NCBI GenBank assembly: GCA_011523685.1
Contig: WTGG01000011.1
Span: 1 to 64,000, forward strand
Direction of reading: 5' to 3'
From: Coxiellaceae bacterium
GTDB taxonomy: Bacteria; Pseudomonadota; Gammaproteobacteria; Coxiellales; Coxiellaceae
DNA: 64,000 bases
The notes below the pieces were generated by a model. The model ran no database searches and had not been told where the DNA came from. It saw nothing but the letters and a program-made list of their open reading frames with translations. A program made the position numbers and the translations under genes. Numbering within the stretch: position 1 is the stretch's first letter; each line of letters starts with the position of its first letter. Shown piece by piece: positions 549-7,195 of the stretch.

Positions 549-2210
549 TTAGTGAACAACTGTATGGTCGCTGCTCATCTCAAATAAGTAATGGTTGTCA
601 TTATAATTTATGGGTACTTCAACTAGTATCGGGCCTTTATGATCTTTACCTTCTTTGATGATGCTAGGGATTTGCTTTGCATCCTCAAGTTTATATCCTT
701 TGGCCCCAAAGCTTTCTGCAAATTTCACATAGTCAATCTCGCCAAATTTTACTGCTGCTGATCTATCGTATTTTATATTTTGCTGCTCTTTTACCATGTT
801 GTAGTAACCGTCGGCCCATATAAAGTGTATAAAATTTGCCTTTTCTCTAACTGCAGTTTCTAACTCCATAGCTGAGAAAAGAAAGCCTCCGTCCCCAGAG
901 ATACTAATGATATTATCTTTTTTTGCGTAATGTGCAGCAATAGCCCAGGGTAATGCAACGCCAAGTGTTTGTTGTCCGTTGCTGGTTAGTAATGACCTTG
1001 GTGAATGAACTTTTAAATTATCTGCAATCCACATGTAATGCGTCCCAATATCAGATATTACGATAGTCTCTTCGGTTATTATTTTTTGTAGTTCATTTAT
1101 GAATTCTATGGGGTGAACCTTGCCTGGCTGATTATCAAATTTGATTAATTTCTTTTCATTAAAGGTATTTTTAATTTCATGGAGTTCTTTTCTTATTTCT
1201 TTATTTGTAGGTAATACATTTTTTATTGCTTTGATATTTTTTCGAATGCTTCCAAGGCAGTTTTCTATTGGATTGTAATGTTCTCTTATAAGAGGGATGT
1301 ATTCATTAATGTGAATGATCCTTTGTTTGCCCGGTGAGCACCAGATTTCTGGATCGTACTCTATCGGATCAAATCCTATGGTGATAATAAGATCGCTAGC
1401 ATCAATTATTGCGTCTCCTAACTGATTTTTAAATAGCCCTATTCGGCCAAACCACACTGACTCAAGTTCTTTTGTTATTACTCCTGTTCCTTGAAATGTT
1501 GATACACAGGGTATCTTGTAGTGTTCTAATAGTGATCTTATTTCAGCGCAATTCTTGTCATGAGATGCTTCATTGCCAAGAATTAATAGCGGTGAATTAG
1601 CTTTCTGAATATTGTCACATATATTTTTTATTGTTTCTTCACATGCTCTTGTTTTTTCTATATGTAGAGGTCTAGTATTATCATTACTTTCAGGCCTTGT
1701 TTCGGTGAGAATGTTTTGAGGTATGCTTATAAAACATGCTCCTTGTTTAGGGGTAACTGCCTTTAAGAAACTGTTTGTTATACTTTCTGATACTGTGTTA
1801 ATGCTATTGATTTCTATACTGTGCTTTGTTGCATGTTCTATAATTTGTTTGTTTTCTGCGGCTTGGTGCGTGGATTTGTGAAGCATATCTAAAGGGGCAT
1901 TACCTCCGATAGCAATTACAGGGTCGCCTTCACTAGTTGCGGTTAGTAAACCAGTTGTTAGGTTGCCAATTCCTGGGCCAGACGTCACGATGACGACACC
2001 AGGTTTCCCTGTTAATCTTCCATAGGCTGCGGCCATAAATGCTGCATTTTGCTCATGGCGGCAAACTATCATTTTAATTGTCGTGTCTAATAGGGCGTTA
2101 TGAAGCGCATCAATCTTAGCGCCTGGTATTGTGAATACACGTTCTACCTCATGATCAACTAAACACTGTGCAATGATTTGAGCACCAGAGAGAATTTCTT
2201 TTTTAGACAT
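549..2210 (-). CDS. alsS: acetolactate synthase, catabolic AlsS/BudB type
   Basis: A thiamine-diphosphate enzyme that condenses two pyruvates to 2-acetolactate, usually on the way to acetoin in the cytoplasm. The 553-residue protein has the family's three-domain plan. The pyrimidine-binding domain carries IPGAKIDA and the catalytic glutamate Glu53 in RHEQNAAFMA. The central domain contains GFDPIEYDPEIW, typical of AlsS. The C-terminal domain has the ThDP/Mg motif beginning GDGGFLFSAMELE. The RFDDRVTG motif of FAD-dependent biosynthetic IlvB is absent, so the FAD-free catabolic type is favoured. An upstream in-frame ATG at 2261 exists, but the ATG at 2210 is preceded by an AGGG ribosome site and matches the family N-terminus. 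It converges on the rRNA operon and is divergent from a DoxX-like gene. Confidence 0.9.
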   Translation of the reverse strand: MSKKEILSGAQIIAQCLVDHEVERVFTIPGAKIDALHNALLDTTIKMIVCRHEQNAAFMAAAYGRLTGKPGVVIVTSGPGIGNLTTGLLTATSEGDPVIAIGGNAPLDMLHKSTHQAAENKQIIEHATKHSIEINSINTVSESITNSFLKAVTPKQGACFISIPQNILTETRPESNDNTRPLHIEKTRACEETIKNICDNIQKANSPLLILGNEASHDKNCAEIRSLLEHYKIPCVSTFQGTGVITKELESVWFGRIGLFKNQLGDAIIDASDLIITIGFDPIEYDPEIWCSPGKQRIIHINEYIPLIREHYNPIENCLGSIRKNIKAIKNVLPTNKEIRKELHEIKNTFNEKKLIKFDNQPGKVHPIEFINELQKIITEETIVISDIGTHYMWIADNLKVHSPRSLLTSNGQQTLGVALPWAIAAHYAKKDNIISISGDGGFLFSAMELETAVREKANFIHFIWADGYYNMVKEQQNIKYDRSAAVKFGEIDYVKFAESFGAKGYKLEDAKQIPSIIKEGKDHKGPILVEVPINYNDNHYLFEMSSDHTVVH

Positions 2211-2313
2211 CGGTATACCCTGAATTGATGATATTTGATGAATAGTATATAAGATAATCATTTATGTGTAAATTTAATATTATTTTAAGTTATTACATCT
2301 ATTGGGGGAGGTC

Positions 2314-2742
2314 ATGGAAGTTATTTTAGAAGTTATTGGGCTTGTTTTAGTTGGTTTTTATTTTGTCTTTTTTGTTTTTTGGAATTTTCATTTTAGGATC
2401 CCATGTATAGATGTTATTAAAAATGCTCATGTTCCATTTCCTCGGTTTGTCTTTGCGACTGGTTTAATTGTTGAGGGATTATGTGGCTTATTAATTATAT
2501 TTGAAGCCTTTCTTCTGGCGTTTTTTCCGGGGTCATTGTTTCTTAGTCCGTATTTGCTGATTGTCCCTGCAGGCGTTTTAATGATTTTTATTCTCAGTGC
2601 GACCTTTTTATTTCATCGTTTTTGGGAACTTGAGCCAGGAATGGTGCGTCTGCTGAATACCATTATTTTTATAGGTAACTTTACCATTTCTTTGTCTGCA
2701 GTGTGTTTTGTAATGATGCTAGGTGTTTCCTGGTTGGGGTAA
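2314..2742 (+). CDS. small four-helix membrane protein, DoxX-like
   Basis: A very hydrophobic 142-residue protein with about four membrane segments, near residues 4-25, 45-65, 75-100 and 115-140. Its length, topology and the short polar loop with FHRFWELEPG between the third and fourth helices resemble the DoxX/YphA family of small inner-membrane proteins, whose biochemical role is mostly unclear. The ATG at 2314 sits behind a strong GGGGGAGG ribosome site; a TTG four codons upstream (2302) would overlap that site and is unlikely. It is transcribed away from alsS with about 100 bases between the starts, so the two may share a divergent control region. Family assignment is by pattern only. Confidence 0.65.
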   Translation: MEVILEVIGLVLVGFYFVFFVFWNFHFRIPCIDVIKNAHVPFPRFVFATGLIVEGLCGLLIIFEAFLLAFFPGSLFLSPYLLIVPAGVLMIFILSATFLFHRFWELEPGMVRLLNTIIFIGNFTISLSAVCFVMMLGVSWLG

Positions 2743-2831: not shown

Positions 2832-3632
2832 ATGAAACTAGAATTGAAGCATGAGCTACCATATGAACTGGATGTAATTGGGTCAGTAAATAATGCAATT
2901 CAGGGTAATGTGCCTAAATATCTTAAAGGCCAAAAATTCAATGCATCTGACTATAGTTTTGGTTTTAACTTAGCTTCACCAAATTCTATTGAGAGTATGG
3001 GGGAGTCGGTTATTGTCAATAATAAATGTTATGCTAATGACTCAGATCCCAATTCTCTTAGCTACAATACAACGATTTCAGGAGAATCTTTCTTTACTTC
3101 GGCAATGCTAACTTTGCCAAGAGATACAAAAGAAAACTACATTTTATCTCTATCTGATTCTAGTAATGAAATATCTTATTATGCTCTCTTAAAGAATGTT
3201 TTTGATAAGGTCAAAAAGCCTTTTGTCCTTGTTGCTCATGTCTCTTTTAAATCACTCCACGCCACAGCTATTTCAAAGGCACCGATCTATAATAAGAATA
3301 TTTTTGAAAACAAAGACGAATATTATTGTATGCCAGAGGCTCACTTGAAAAGCACGCATGCTTTCATTATTGCTTGCATAGCTGACTTTTCACTTGTCGA
3401 TAATGTGGATCTTTATAATGGCTTAGAGTTAGTGTTGTATAATAACCCTATGGATAAAAAACAATCTCTGAATATTCATACGCACGCCATCACATTGAAA
3501 AATGCGATAGAGTCATATGAGGAAATCACCCCCAAAATAGTTGATAAAACACTGCATGTTTTTTCTGAGCAAACAGTTATTCAAGCTTTAAAAGGAGAGG
3601 TTTATATGATTAGGGGTCTACGGTCAATTTGA
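2832..3632 (+). CDS. divergent acetolactate-decarboxylase-like protein lacking metal-ligand histidines
   Basis: A 266-residue soluble protein with no strong identity to a named family, but its layout can be aligned by eye with alpha-acetolactate decarboxylase (AlsD/BudA). GESVIVNNKCY near residue 57 parallels the AlsD segment GEMVVLDGKVY. KPFVLVAHVSFKSLHAT near 136 parallels the AlsD strand FYAVRIDGTFxSVxTR. The C-terminal part matches in spacing. The AlsD YHLHF metal-binding strand is replaced by LELVLYNN, so a standard zinc site is missing; an HTH tripeptide occurs a little later, near residue 215. It lies two genes from alsS, which makes the resemblance suggestive. It could be an inactive or repurposed relative, or unrelated. 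The ATG has a GGAG ten bases upstream. Confidence 0.4.
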   Translation: MKLELKHELPYELDVIGSVNNAIQGNVPKYLKGQKFNASDYSFGFNLASPNSIESMGESVIVNNKCYANDSDPNSLSYNTTISGESFFTSAMLTLPRDTKENYILSLSDSSNEISYYALLKNVFDKVKKPFVLVAHVSFKSLHATAISKAPIYNKNIFENKDEYYCMPEAHLKSTHAFIIACIADFSLVDNVDLYNGLELVLYNNPMDKKQSLNIHTHAITLKNAIESYEEITPKIVDKTLHVFSEQTVIQALKGEVYMIRGLRSI

Positions 3633-3830
3633 TTATTCATATATTTTAAGATAAGCATGTTTATATATTCACTCAAATCATGGGAAGTTTATTGTTACGA
3701 GTGACTTTTATCAGTTATGAATAACATTATTTATTAGTATGATCATTGATTTTTGCAGTAATCGTCAATATTTAGGTGGTGCTGTTAGTGCGTGTTTAAA
3801 AAAAACAGTGAAAGCTAATTTTTTGTTCGG

Positions 3831-4106
3831 GTGAATGTTGAGTGTGCTTTTGGCGATATTTATGGTGATCCTGATTCTTCCTTGAATGATAGGACTCGAG
3901 AGATGATTACTTTAGCTGCATTGACGGTTCAAGGGTTATCCATGGCGGCTTTTAAAGTTCATGTAATATCAGCTTTGAATGTGGGTGTAAGACCTCAAGA
4001 AATTATTGACATTATTACTCAAATGATTGCCTATTGTGGTTTCCCGGCCGCCACACAAGCGATGGTTGCTGCGCTAGAGATCATGGAAGAACAAGGTGTT
4101 ATTTAA
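3831..4106 (+). CDS. carboxymuconolactone-decarboxylase-family protein, N-terminally short
   Basis: A 91-residue all-alpha protein of the CMD/AhpD-like family. Recognisable parts are FGDIYGDPDSSLNDRTREMI, ITLAALTVQG, KVHVISALNVGV and the C-terminal QMIAYCGFPAATQAM. Family members of this type are usually about 110-130 residues, with an N-terminal helix before the FGDIY segment. Here an in-frame TAA lies at 3816-3818, so translation could begin only at the GTG at 3831. No good ribosome site precedes that codon. The catalytic CxxC pair of AhpD is absent, as in many CMD proteins. It may be a small functional protein or a 5'-truncated remnant. Confidence 0.55.
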   Translation: MNVECAFGDIYGDPDSSLNDRTREMITLAALTVQGLSMAAFKVHVISALNVGVRPQEIIDIITQMIAYCGFPAATQAMVAALEIMEEQGVI

Positions 4107-4130
4107 ATCGTAAATCGATGTCACTTATTC

Positions 4131-4159
4131 CTTTCAGAGTTTTTTAGGACTGGTATAAT
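4131..4159 (+). promoter_or_regulatory. extended -10 promoter of the GH3 gene
   Basis: TGGTATAAT (4151-4159) is a perfect -10 hexamer with the TGn extension. CTTTCA stands 17 bases upstream (4131-4136) as a weak -35. The expected transcription start is at or next to the ATG at 4166. Confidence 0.6.
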
Positions 4160-4165
4160 CTGACT

Positions 4166-5278
4166 ATGTTTACGTGTCGCTATGGGCATTTAAAGTGTCT
4201 TAAAAGTAAGATCGCATCATTATTAATCATTGGTTTTGAAGGCCAAAGTGCAGACCACTCATTTATAAAGGATCTTTCCAGGTTACCTCACCCAGGGGGA
4301 CTGATTGCTTTTGATCGAAGGTGTGATAGTAACAATCTATCTGAAAATATCGCGAAGAATATTATTGATCCGGTTCAATTAAAGCAACTTAATGATCAAT
4401 TAAAAAACTTATTTCCACATACGCTTATATCGATTGACTCAGAGGGAGGTCTAGATTGGACGGAGTTGGCGAATGGATATCCTATTCGATATGGTGTCAA
4501 TCGTTTAAAGGTCAGTGCTGGCTTTCCTGCAACCCACTGCGCTTATCAATTAGGGCAATTATATCAGGATGGAAAAGTAGATGAGGCAAAGCAGTGTTGC
4601 GATAATATTGCAAAGCTTTTATTTGATCTAAACTTTAATTGTGTGTATGCCCCTGTCGTTGATATCCATAGTGAGCAGTGTCCCATTATCGGTCAGATCC
4701 ATAGAAGTTTCTCATCGAGTATTGACGTCGTAACAAACTGTGCAAAGTTATTTATTGATGCTTGCCGTCACTATGATATTCAGTGTTGCTTGAAGCATTA
4801 TCCGGGTCATGGCAGTGCTTTGGGTGATACGCATTTAGGACAGGTAGACATTACGGCACTATGGTCTGACGACGAACTTAAGCCTTATGATGAATTGGCA
4901 AGTCACTGTGGTATGGTGATGATGTCACATGTGATTCATCGTGATTTTGATGATCAGCCAGTGAGTTTATCAAAGCATTGGGTTGATCGATTGCGATCCG
5001 CGGGTTTCGATGGTGTGATTATTACCGATGATATTCAAATGGCTGCTACTGCTGAAATGATGTCATCAGCTTCCAAGCAGTCATTAGCCGAACTAGTGTT
5101 GCGAGCTTTTATCGCGGGTAATGATACGGTGATCATCGGTGGTCAGTTGGCATCATTTTCATTATCAGATTATGAATATCTGTTAGATTTTCTTGAGCAA
5201 AGTATTTTATCAGGTCGCTGGACTTATGATGATTTTGAGGCTTCTTTAAATCGCGTCAATAAAAGACGTTTGGGTTGA
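4166..5278 (+). CDS. glycoside hydrolase family 3, NagZ-like beta-N-acetylhexosaminidase
   Basis: A single-domain GH3 (beta/alpha)8 enzyme of 370 residues. NagZ proteins remove N-acetylglucosamine from anhydromuropeptides in the cytoplasm during cell-wall recycling. Visible motifs are GLIAFDR near 50, SIDSEGG near 93, KHYPGHGSALGDTHLG near 210-226 (the NagZ loop whose Asp-x-His pair is the general acid/base) and VIITDDIQM near 290 carrying the nucleophilic aspartate. There is no signal peptide, which fits a cytoplasmic enzyme. NagZ of this form is usually about 340 residues; the extra length is mainly N-terminal. The -10 element ends only six bases before the ATG and no Shine-Dalgarno site is seen. 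Another GH3 specificity is possible, so no symbol is given. Confidence 0.8.
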   Translation: MFTCRYGHLKCLKSKIASLLIIGFEGQSADHSFIKDLSRLPHPGGLIAFDRRCDSNNLSENIAKNIIDPVQLKQLNDQLKNLFPHTLISIDSEGGLDWTELANGYPIRYGVNRLKVSAGFPATHCAYQLGQLYQDGKVDEAKQCCDNIAKLLFDLNFNCVYAPVVDIHSEQCPIIGQIHRSFSSSIDVVTNCAKLFIDACRHYDIQCCLKHYPGHGSALGDTHLGQVDITALWSDDELKPYDELASHCGMVMMSHVIHRDFDDQPVSLSKHWVDRLRSAGFDGVIITDDIQMAATAEMMSSASKQSLAELVLRAFIAGNDTVIIGGQLASFSLSDYEYLLDFLEQSILSGRWTYDDFEASLNRVNKRRLG

Positions 5279-5447
5279 TCTTGTTTTTTGATTGATTGGT
5301 TATAATTTGCACTGGTTTTTTCTTAAAGCAGTATTATCTGTGCTTTTTTGACACTTATTGTCTATTTTTAATATCAAAATAAGATTTTTTCTTTATCATC
5401 ACTAGGCTTTTATATCAATTAGAACGCCTATTTCGGGGAGTAAAAAA

Positions 5448-5789
5448 ATGGGAAAATTTTCACCAGTAAAAGAACGCTGTAGCCAAGCCAGTATAGCGAA
5501 AAGCTCATTCTTTAAAGATCGTCATAACTTTGATGAGCAGTTTAAAACAATGATGGATAAGATTACCAATATTCTACAAACAGATTCTACATGTAGGGAA
5601 AGTGAAAGAAGTTATTCAGAGGGTAACGTGAGTAAATGTTATTGTGACGGCAAAGCATTACTGGTAAAGCTGAGAGCTAATCATATGAATAAGTACGGGA
5701 AAACACTTGCTAAAAAGTTACATAAGTTAAATGGTTTTATGGTGCGTTTTAAAAATACTGAGAAAGAAGTTGGTTGTTCTTTAACCTAG
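5448..5789 (+). CDS. orphan small protein, function unknown
   Basis: A 113-residue basic protein with a strong GGGGAG ribosome site seven bases before the ATG. It has no signal peptide or membrane segment. Cysteines are scattered (C13, C50, C65, C67, C111), and the C-terminal half is lysine-rich, ending in a helix-like stretch around LAKKLHKLNG. I recognise no family. A TATAAT hexamer at 5301-5306 is the best nearby promoter candidate. It is followed after 86 bases by another orphan gene on the same strand. Confidence 0.6.
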   Translation: MGKFSPVKERCSQASIAKSSFFKDRHNFDEQFKTMMDKITNILQTDSTCRESERSYSEGNVSKCYCDGKALLVKLRANHMNKYGKTLAKKLHKLNGFMVRFKNTEKEVGCSLT

Positions 5790-5875
5790 GGTTTCATAAA
5801 AGTCGGTTGGATTAAGTCTATACCGATCTCTTATTTGTCTTGTGCAATCAGTGTAATGAGTTATGAGTATTAGTT

Positions 5876-7195
5876 ATGAGAGTAAATAAGGAGCCAGATA
5901 CACCTGAAGTATTAAGGCAGCTATCTAGTAGTCATTGCTTGCATAAGTTCTGTTTTCTTTTTGGTCGTGGCGTTGCAGTCAGTTTATTTTCTACAGCTTC
6001 CTCCCTGTCTTTGCCTGTTGTTTTGATTGCTCTGCTACAAAAGTATTCGATCAATTTAACGAACTTTGAAAAAAATATATATCCAGTTATACCCTATGGT
6101 TTATTGGTGGTATGTCGCTCATGGCTAGTCTCAAATGGTTTGGTAAACCGCTTGAATGGTAAAGAAGATCGACCTATCTTACCGTTAACACATGAAGATG
6201 CTCGCTCGGATCATTCGCGAGTGATATTAGCTTTGCTAGCTAATCTTTCGAGTATTACTAATGTCATGTTAGTCGTGATGTTTAGTGCCAAAGAAGCACA
6301 TATAGCAGTGCAATGTGCATTGTTTATTGTTTCTGGCGGACTTAATTACTTACTCGAATTATATACGGATGTTGTCGATAGTTTTCGCAAGCATGTTGAG
6401 TACTGTGATGATCAAGGTGTTGATGTTAAGCCTCTATTTCAGCAGCCTTTAGTGAGATCTGTATATAGTTATTCAGACAAGGTCGCTGTTTGTATTCGTG
6501 AGTTACTGCCAGTGTTTAGAGGTTTTGTCAGATCTCGTGCCTTTTTGGAGGTGATGAAAGGTTATGTGAAAGAGCGCAATATAGCATTACAGATTGTTTG
6601 TTATTTATTATCAGTGTTAATTTATTGCGCGTCGGCGTATTCCTGTGGCTTTGAGTTAATTCAATTGCGAGATAATATTGAAAGTATGGGGAAAACTTTC
6701 GTCGTGAAGAATTGTTTATCACATTCCTCAAGTTACTTATTGCAGTTCTTAGGGCGTGTCTGTAGCGGTCAAGTTTTTATGGATGTTGCGCAAATAGGTT
6801 TAACTCAGTTGATGAGCTTTTATGGGGTATTGCTTTTTAGTGCTATAGGTTCTATGTCTTTAATTAAAATCATCATGACGATCTACCTCAGCAGTAATGA
6901 TCGATCAGCTGTTGTTAATGGTCATGAAGGCTTGGTTATGCAGTATTATTTGGGGTGTGAAAAAGCATTAAGTTTAGCGCCTATGATTGATATCGCTGTG
7001 ATTGGTTTATCTGTGATTTTAGGGTGTTTGAGCACTTATTCACAAAAGTCGACACTATCACAATACTCAACTTTATTAGGTGTTTATTCATCTGCGCGAG
7101 TTCATCAAGCATGTGACCTTCCTTCTGAAGGAGATGTTGATTGTAACGAAAATAAAAATGGGTCAATAGGTGTAGTCGCAATGCCCATGACATAA
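5876..7195 (+). CDS. orphan multi-pass membrane protein
   Basis: A 439-residue protein with about seven hydrophobic segments, near residues 33-55, 67-84, 114-138, 142-163, 236-262, 310-336 and 370-390, and a hydrophilic middle loop of about 70 residues (165-235). No transporter or enzyme motif is recognised. There is no cleavable signal, and the first 30 residues are polar. The ribosome site is weak, so the start is uncertain. It lies downstream of another orphan gene and directly upstream of a decayed stretch, which suggests a lineage-specific or acquired segment. Confidence 0.65.
   Translation: MRVNKEPDTPEVLRQLSSSHCLHKFCFLFGRGVAVSLFSTASSLSLPVVLIALLQKYSINLTNFEKNIYPVIPYGLLVVCRSWLVSNGLVNRLNGKEDRPILPLTHEDARSDHSRVILALLANLSSITNVMLVVMFSAKEAHIAVQCALFIVSGGLNYLLELYTDVVDSFRKHVEYCDDQGVDVKPLFQQPLVRSVYSYSDKVAVCIRELLPVFRGFVRSRAFLEVMKGYVKERNIALQIVCYLLSVLIYCASAYSCGFELIQLRDNIESMGKTFVVKNCLSHSSSYLLQFLGRVCSGQVFMDVAQIGLTQLMSFYGVLLFSAIGSMSLIKIIMTIYLSSNDRSAVVNGHEGLVMQYYLGCEKALSLAPMIDIAVIGLSVILGCLSTYSQKSTLSQYSTLLGVYSSARVHQACDLPSEGDVDCNENKNGSIGVVAMPMT

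Follow-up and report, generated by a model that had tools for sequence, protein, structure and literature searches.

Catabolic acetolactate synthase (AlsS) converts two molecules of pyruvate into acetolactate. The closest described system for the gene studied here is the alpha-acetolactate decarboxylase AlsD (also BudA or ALDC; PF03306, e.g., PDB 4bt2). Linkage to alsS is common for AlsD genes, although it does not define them. We analysed a 64,000-nucleotide stretch of a Coxiellaceae contig (WTGG01000011.1; hereafter, the window), in which a gene near alsS had been proposed, from the sequence alone, to encode an AlsD-like protein that has lost its metal-ligand histidines.

The variant gene, its surroundings, and its family

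The genome holding the window (G000, contig C25) is a 2.04-Mb Coxiellaceae genome. Its alsS gene (549..2261, reverse strand) matched the models NF006378 (1.2e-206) and TIGR02418 (1.6e-197), both above their curated cut-offs; the NCBIfam AlsS equivalog scored 687 bits (cut-off, 510), which confirmed the catabolic assignment made in the original prediction. The AlsD-related variant gene (2832..3632, forward strand), which is divergent from alsS and 0.57 kb away, comprises 266 codons with an ATG start and a GGAG sequence upstream. Between the two genes, a small ORF (2302..2742, forward strand) resembling a membrane protein was observed in a position similar to that of the DoxX genes at other alsS loci; comparison with DoxX gave no support for homology. 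An ORF of the carboxymuconolactone decarboxylase (CMD) family (3831..4106, forward strand; PF02627, 2.6e-18) follows the variant gene. This ORF is truncated at its 5' end: it is 51% identical to the complete CMD beside alsS in G017, lacks about 35 N-terminal residues of this orthologue, and its frame is closed upstream.

The N-terminus of the variant protein has no signal-peptide-like sequence. Neither the protein nor its family gave a useful match when searched by sequence against Pfam, NCBIfam, PHROG, and the PDB; a Lum_binding match (E 0.16) was set aside. No relatives were detected among plasmids, phages, or viral contigs. Among named relatives, the nearest that carries a homologue is a Coxiellaceae MAG (contig JAUXWQ010000015.1). 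In the same family as the window genome, the homologue at L022 (G041) was 39% identical, with values of about 30–32% for the homologues in G083, G221, G424, G426, and G427; none was found in the other four genomes searched from the window genus. In a class-level draw of 369 genomes, members were confined to one genus of another family (genus g61 of family f49), presumably Francisella. A search of the order of this genus gave matches in eight genomes, and a draw of 398 genomes across the phylum yielded no further members. One match at 8e-7 (G116) lay within an unrelated-looking protein of 287 aa. The variant family was found in the Coxiellaceae and one genus in a second order.

Some copies are damaged: in G325, the two halves of the variant are separated by an IS5-like transposase gene (L031, 4703-6370), the copy in G422 is truncated, and that in G405 is a short fragment. 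Close-relative pairs within genus g61 exhibited dN/dS values of 0.03–0.06, with dS near saturation; between G083 and G424, whose variants are 93% identical, dN was 0.04 versus a dS of 1.3. Strong purifying selection on the homologues, together with the start codon and the upstream GGAG, indicates that the ORF is real, and the variant belongs to a real, conserved, and unannotated family.

Remote homology to AlsD

PF03306 did not match the window protein or the variant family at an E-value of 1 or 10. In a profile–profile comparison with hhalign (seven full-length variant members versus 28 AlsDs), the variant was aligned with AlsD with a score of 42.8, a probability of 80%, and a pair E-value of 1.5e-5. 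Column-shuffled controls had a mean score of 14.8 (SD 2.7, maximum 25.1, n = 400; z of about 10 for the variant) and the reversed variant family scored 15.9. Among 12 unrelated families from the same loci, the highest score was 25.8, obtained for a cupin-like pirin family over 38 columns, versus 155 columns for the variant. Since its score exceeded both the shuffle maximum and the best unrelated family, the proposed relationship to AlsD was supported. An earlier comparison with 15 AlsDs had been marginal (28.0 versus a shuffle maximum of 27.8), and the score was strengthened once AlsDs of related families joined the profile.

The aligned part corresponded mainly to residues 5–150, in which four collinear segments were distinguished (residues 8–26, 57–72, 108–130, and 138–150). 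Identity to AlsD was about 13–16%. In the top segment, GESVIVNNKCYANDSD was placed on GEMIQMGTKFYQIDST. Both resemblances first noticed by eye were recovered: GESVIVNNKCY falls on the AlsD motif GEM(V/I)xxxxKFY in the best ungapped segment (residues 57–72, score 15.4), and SFKSLHAT is collinear with AlsD at residues 138–150. The C-terminal half alone gave no significant match to the AlsD profile. AlphaFold models reached a pLDDT of 28.4 with the window sequence alone and 31.8 with three rows (window, L022, and the AlsD of L096, from a viral contig); with the latter model, Foldseek returned noise and no ALDC match. Judged by profile–profile comparison, the variant is a remote homologue of AlsD, recognizable as such in its N-terminal part only.

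The L096 gene itself (5184-6020) encodes a canonical AlsD in an IMG/VR contig labelled viral. Genes for an SDR oxidoreductase and for a protein of PAAR type lie nearby, and this is perhaps a bacterial stretch.

Active-site residues

AlsD has exactly three invariant histidines, arranged HxH...H. The count is the same in the variant family: H216 and H218 (codons H216-T217-H218, 3477..3485, forward strand) and H242 (3555..3557, forward strand), all present in the seven full-length members. Two alignment registers were obtained. In register A, HTH corresponds to the HxH pair and H242 to the third ligand. In register B, which is that of the original prediction, the VLYxNP stretch (codons L202-Y-N-N-P206, 3435..3449, forward strand) takes the place of the AlsD strand YHLHF, and H216 lies on the third zinc ligand.

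Register B was chosen by all eight joint MAFFT settings (28 AlsDs) and by 56 of the 60 resamplings; hhalign also leaned towards it, at low confidence. Register A was chosen by a first MAFFT alignment of five sequences, later weakened by the joint alignments, and was preferred by a profile of AlsDs from the family of genus g61 (motif HFHF-x8-VYHVY). With this profile and workable gap costs, posteriors were 0.88–0.95 for H242 on the third histidine and 0.45–0.61 for H216 on the first. Overall, we consider register B roughly twice as likely as register A.

Two features are common to both registers. The glutamate of the GE motif is kept (codons G57-E58, 3000..3005, forward strand), this motif being invariant in the family and placed on its equally invariant AlsD counterpart. 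At the position of T145 (3264..3266, forward strand), T in the Coxiellaceae and E in genus g61 replace an Arg that is nearly invariant in AlsD. Apart from these features, a C-terminal Glu is not conserved in the variant. The claim that all three histidines are missing was incorrect in both registers, H216, H218, and H242 being invariant. That LELVLYNN replaces the zinc strand YHLHF is borne out by the 56 resampled alignments, whereas the rival register differs; the loss of metal ligands thus holds in register B for the HxH pair (N204/P206) but not for the third position, where H216 remains.

Changes were also observed in canonical AlsDs. In those of family f49 (L076, L077, L078, L079, and L086-L088), VYHVY or a similar sequence replaces GGHV, at the position of the third zinc ligand, and the N-terminus is signal-peptide-like. 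A 557-aa protein in G025 (L005, 496-2166) combines an AlsD domain, in which the conserved Arg is replaced too, with a long C-terminal part of repeat-like sequence.

Genes beside alsS and related gene content

True AlsS was identified in 14 of the 69 genomes of the two orders; the tally of alsS neighbours over these 14 leaves out G405. A canonical AlsD gene with a DoxX-like gene was observed beside alsS in G016 and G021, and the AlsS and AlsD genes of G050 lie at contig ends, which is consistent with the same order. In G017, G402, G404, and G409, the neighbour was a CMD gene, with or without DoxX. The variant was found directly downstream of alsS in G041 (12 nt), G221, G325, G426, and G427, and the window has both the variant and the truncated CMD gene near alsS. 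Within a single genus, the order alsS-variant-malic enzyme (G041) was found versus alsS-CMD-DoxX-malic enzyme (G017), with malic enzymes that are 78% identical. The variant has been exchanged with a CMD gene at this syntenic locus. It holds the genomic place of AlsD in two gammaproteobacterial groups and is probably an unrecognised stand-in for this enzyme.

The alsS-linked CMD genes, often accompanied by a DoxX-like gene (L106 of G017, 3449-5872; L107, L108, and L109), occur in four genomes of two orders, in three of which AlsD was undetectable. This CMD may likewise be an acetolactate decarboxylase, although it is unrelated to AlsD. A full-text literature search combining CMD with acetolactate synthase and acetoin returned nothing relevant.

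A six-frame search of G000 revealed no PF03306 match, and none was found in G041 or G221, despite the presence of AlsS. IlvC was absent from G000 and G041 in a search that was positive in all 14 control genomes; therefore, acetolactate cannot enter valine synthesis in these two genomes. The genomes G325, G426, and G427 have the variant and, elsewhere, a canonical AlsD. By eye, these three AlsDs have a signal-peptide-like start, as do most canonical AlsDs of both orders. Because the variant does not, the two proteins may act in different compartments.

No AlsS was detected at 1e-100 in G083 or G424, though the variant is intact in both. At these loci (L029 and L091, respectively), alsS has been deleted just upstream of the variant. 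In G424, a short remnant that is still in frame and similar to the C-terminus of alsS precedes the variant (L091, 2474-2530), so that the loss may be recent. Among small-genome relatives, AlsD pseudogenes with several stops were observed in genus g6 (G009:C110, G042:C1, G046:C13, and G048:C1), which suggests that the acetoin pathway has been lost repeatedly.

Proposed function and alternatives

We favour, with a probability of about 0.58, the reading that the variant is a deeply diverged cytosolic AlsD homologue with a remodelled active site, whose most likely reaction is the conversion of acetolactate to acetoin. The acetolactate produced by AlsS would be the substrate, and decarboxylation to acetoin the most probable reaction. 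The remodelled site would retain one zinc-histidine position besides the glutamate of the GE motif, with no equivalent of the conserved Arg; the invariant H216, H218, H242, and E58 form a putative metal-binding set, and we infer the fold of the C-terminal half. That the variant still acts on acetolactate is argued by its operon position, the absence of any other AlsD from three genomes (G000, G041, and G221), and the exchange with CMD. We consider the original prediction of a decarboxylase fold turned to another use less likely.

Evidence against the favoured reading comes from the three genomes in which canonical AlsD is present alongside the variant (G325, G426, and G427) and the two in which the gene is retained without alsS (G083 and G424). 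Further points against it are the unconserved Arg, C-terminal Glu, and (in register B) HxH, the C-terminal half that matched no profile significantly by itself, and the low-confidence structure models. Considered with the replacement of HxH and the loss of Arg in the favoured register, the coexistence with AlsD and the retention without alsS could be explained by a protein of the AlsD fold that has lost decarboxylase activity, and which acts instead, for example, as a partner or regulator of AlsS that binds acetolactate, or in another acetolactate reaction. We find this less likely: the variant occupies the slot of CMD between alsS and the malic enzyme, no other AlsD is present in G000, G041, or G221, and, with signal-peptide-like starts in most canonical AlsDs of these orders, coexistence may reflect different compartments.

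Less likely, too, is the explanation that the variant is simply a very divergent AlsD with its full zinc site kept, H216-T-H218 being the HxH pair and H242 the third His, with a longer hairpin separating them. The three histidines that are invariant across the family do form the HxH...H pattern of AlsD, and both the g61-family AlsD profile and the five-sequence alignment chose the corresponding register; nevertheless, two insertions are needed, the Arg is still absent, and the joint alignments and most resamplings chose the other register. Finally, a chance resemblance to AlsD in a neighbourhood that is coincidental or derived from another pathway would agree with the lack of a Pfam or NCBIfam match, the low identity, the C-terminal half that is unalignable alone, and the lack of a usable fold, but is highly improbable given a score far above the shuffled, reversed, and real-family controls and an alsS linkage that recurs in two orders.

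Implications and comparison with known systems

If the favoured function of the variant, decarboxylation of acetolactate, is true, present annotation misses acetoin formation in Coxiellaceae-type bacteria, and the acetoin pathway would gain two families that have had no function in it, namely the variant and the CMD linked to alsS. The variant would also serve as a natural experiment on how much remodelling the zinc site of acetolactate decarboxylase tolerates. Moreover, the operon of malic enzyme and AlsS points to a possible acid-consuming pathway that starts from malate; such a pathway would be an advantage to bacteria of acidic vacuoles.

The alsS-linked CMD (PF02627; G017, G402, G404, and G409) occupies the same slot as the variant, after or beside alsS, and CMD with DoxX interchanges with it between alsS and malic enzyme in one genus. 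Unlike the variant, it belongs to an unrelated family of about 127 aa, which the PcaC models match only under their cut-off. As a tentative extension, the variant could represent a second class of acetolactate-converting proteins with the AlsD fold, having an invariant HTH...H metal site instead of one on the HxH strand and no catalytic Arg, and being interchangeable at alsS loci with AlsD and with the unrelated CMD, which would be a third, unrecognised decarboxylase.

The variant resembles AlsD in its length, the order of its N-terminal segments, its GE motif with an invariant E58, its place beside alsS, and at least one zinc-His position. It differs in falling under PF03306 detection, in having N204/P206 instead of HxH in the favoured register, and T or E where the active-site Arg after the AlsD FxxVxxR strand is nearly invariant, as well as in its own HTH and H242 and its lack of the AlsD C-terminal AE(G) segment. 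Since the PF03306 model does not match and the Arg is absent, the AlsD label should be withheld from the variant, which nonetheless probably works like AlsD.
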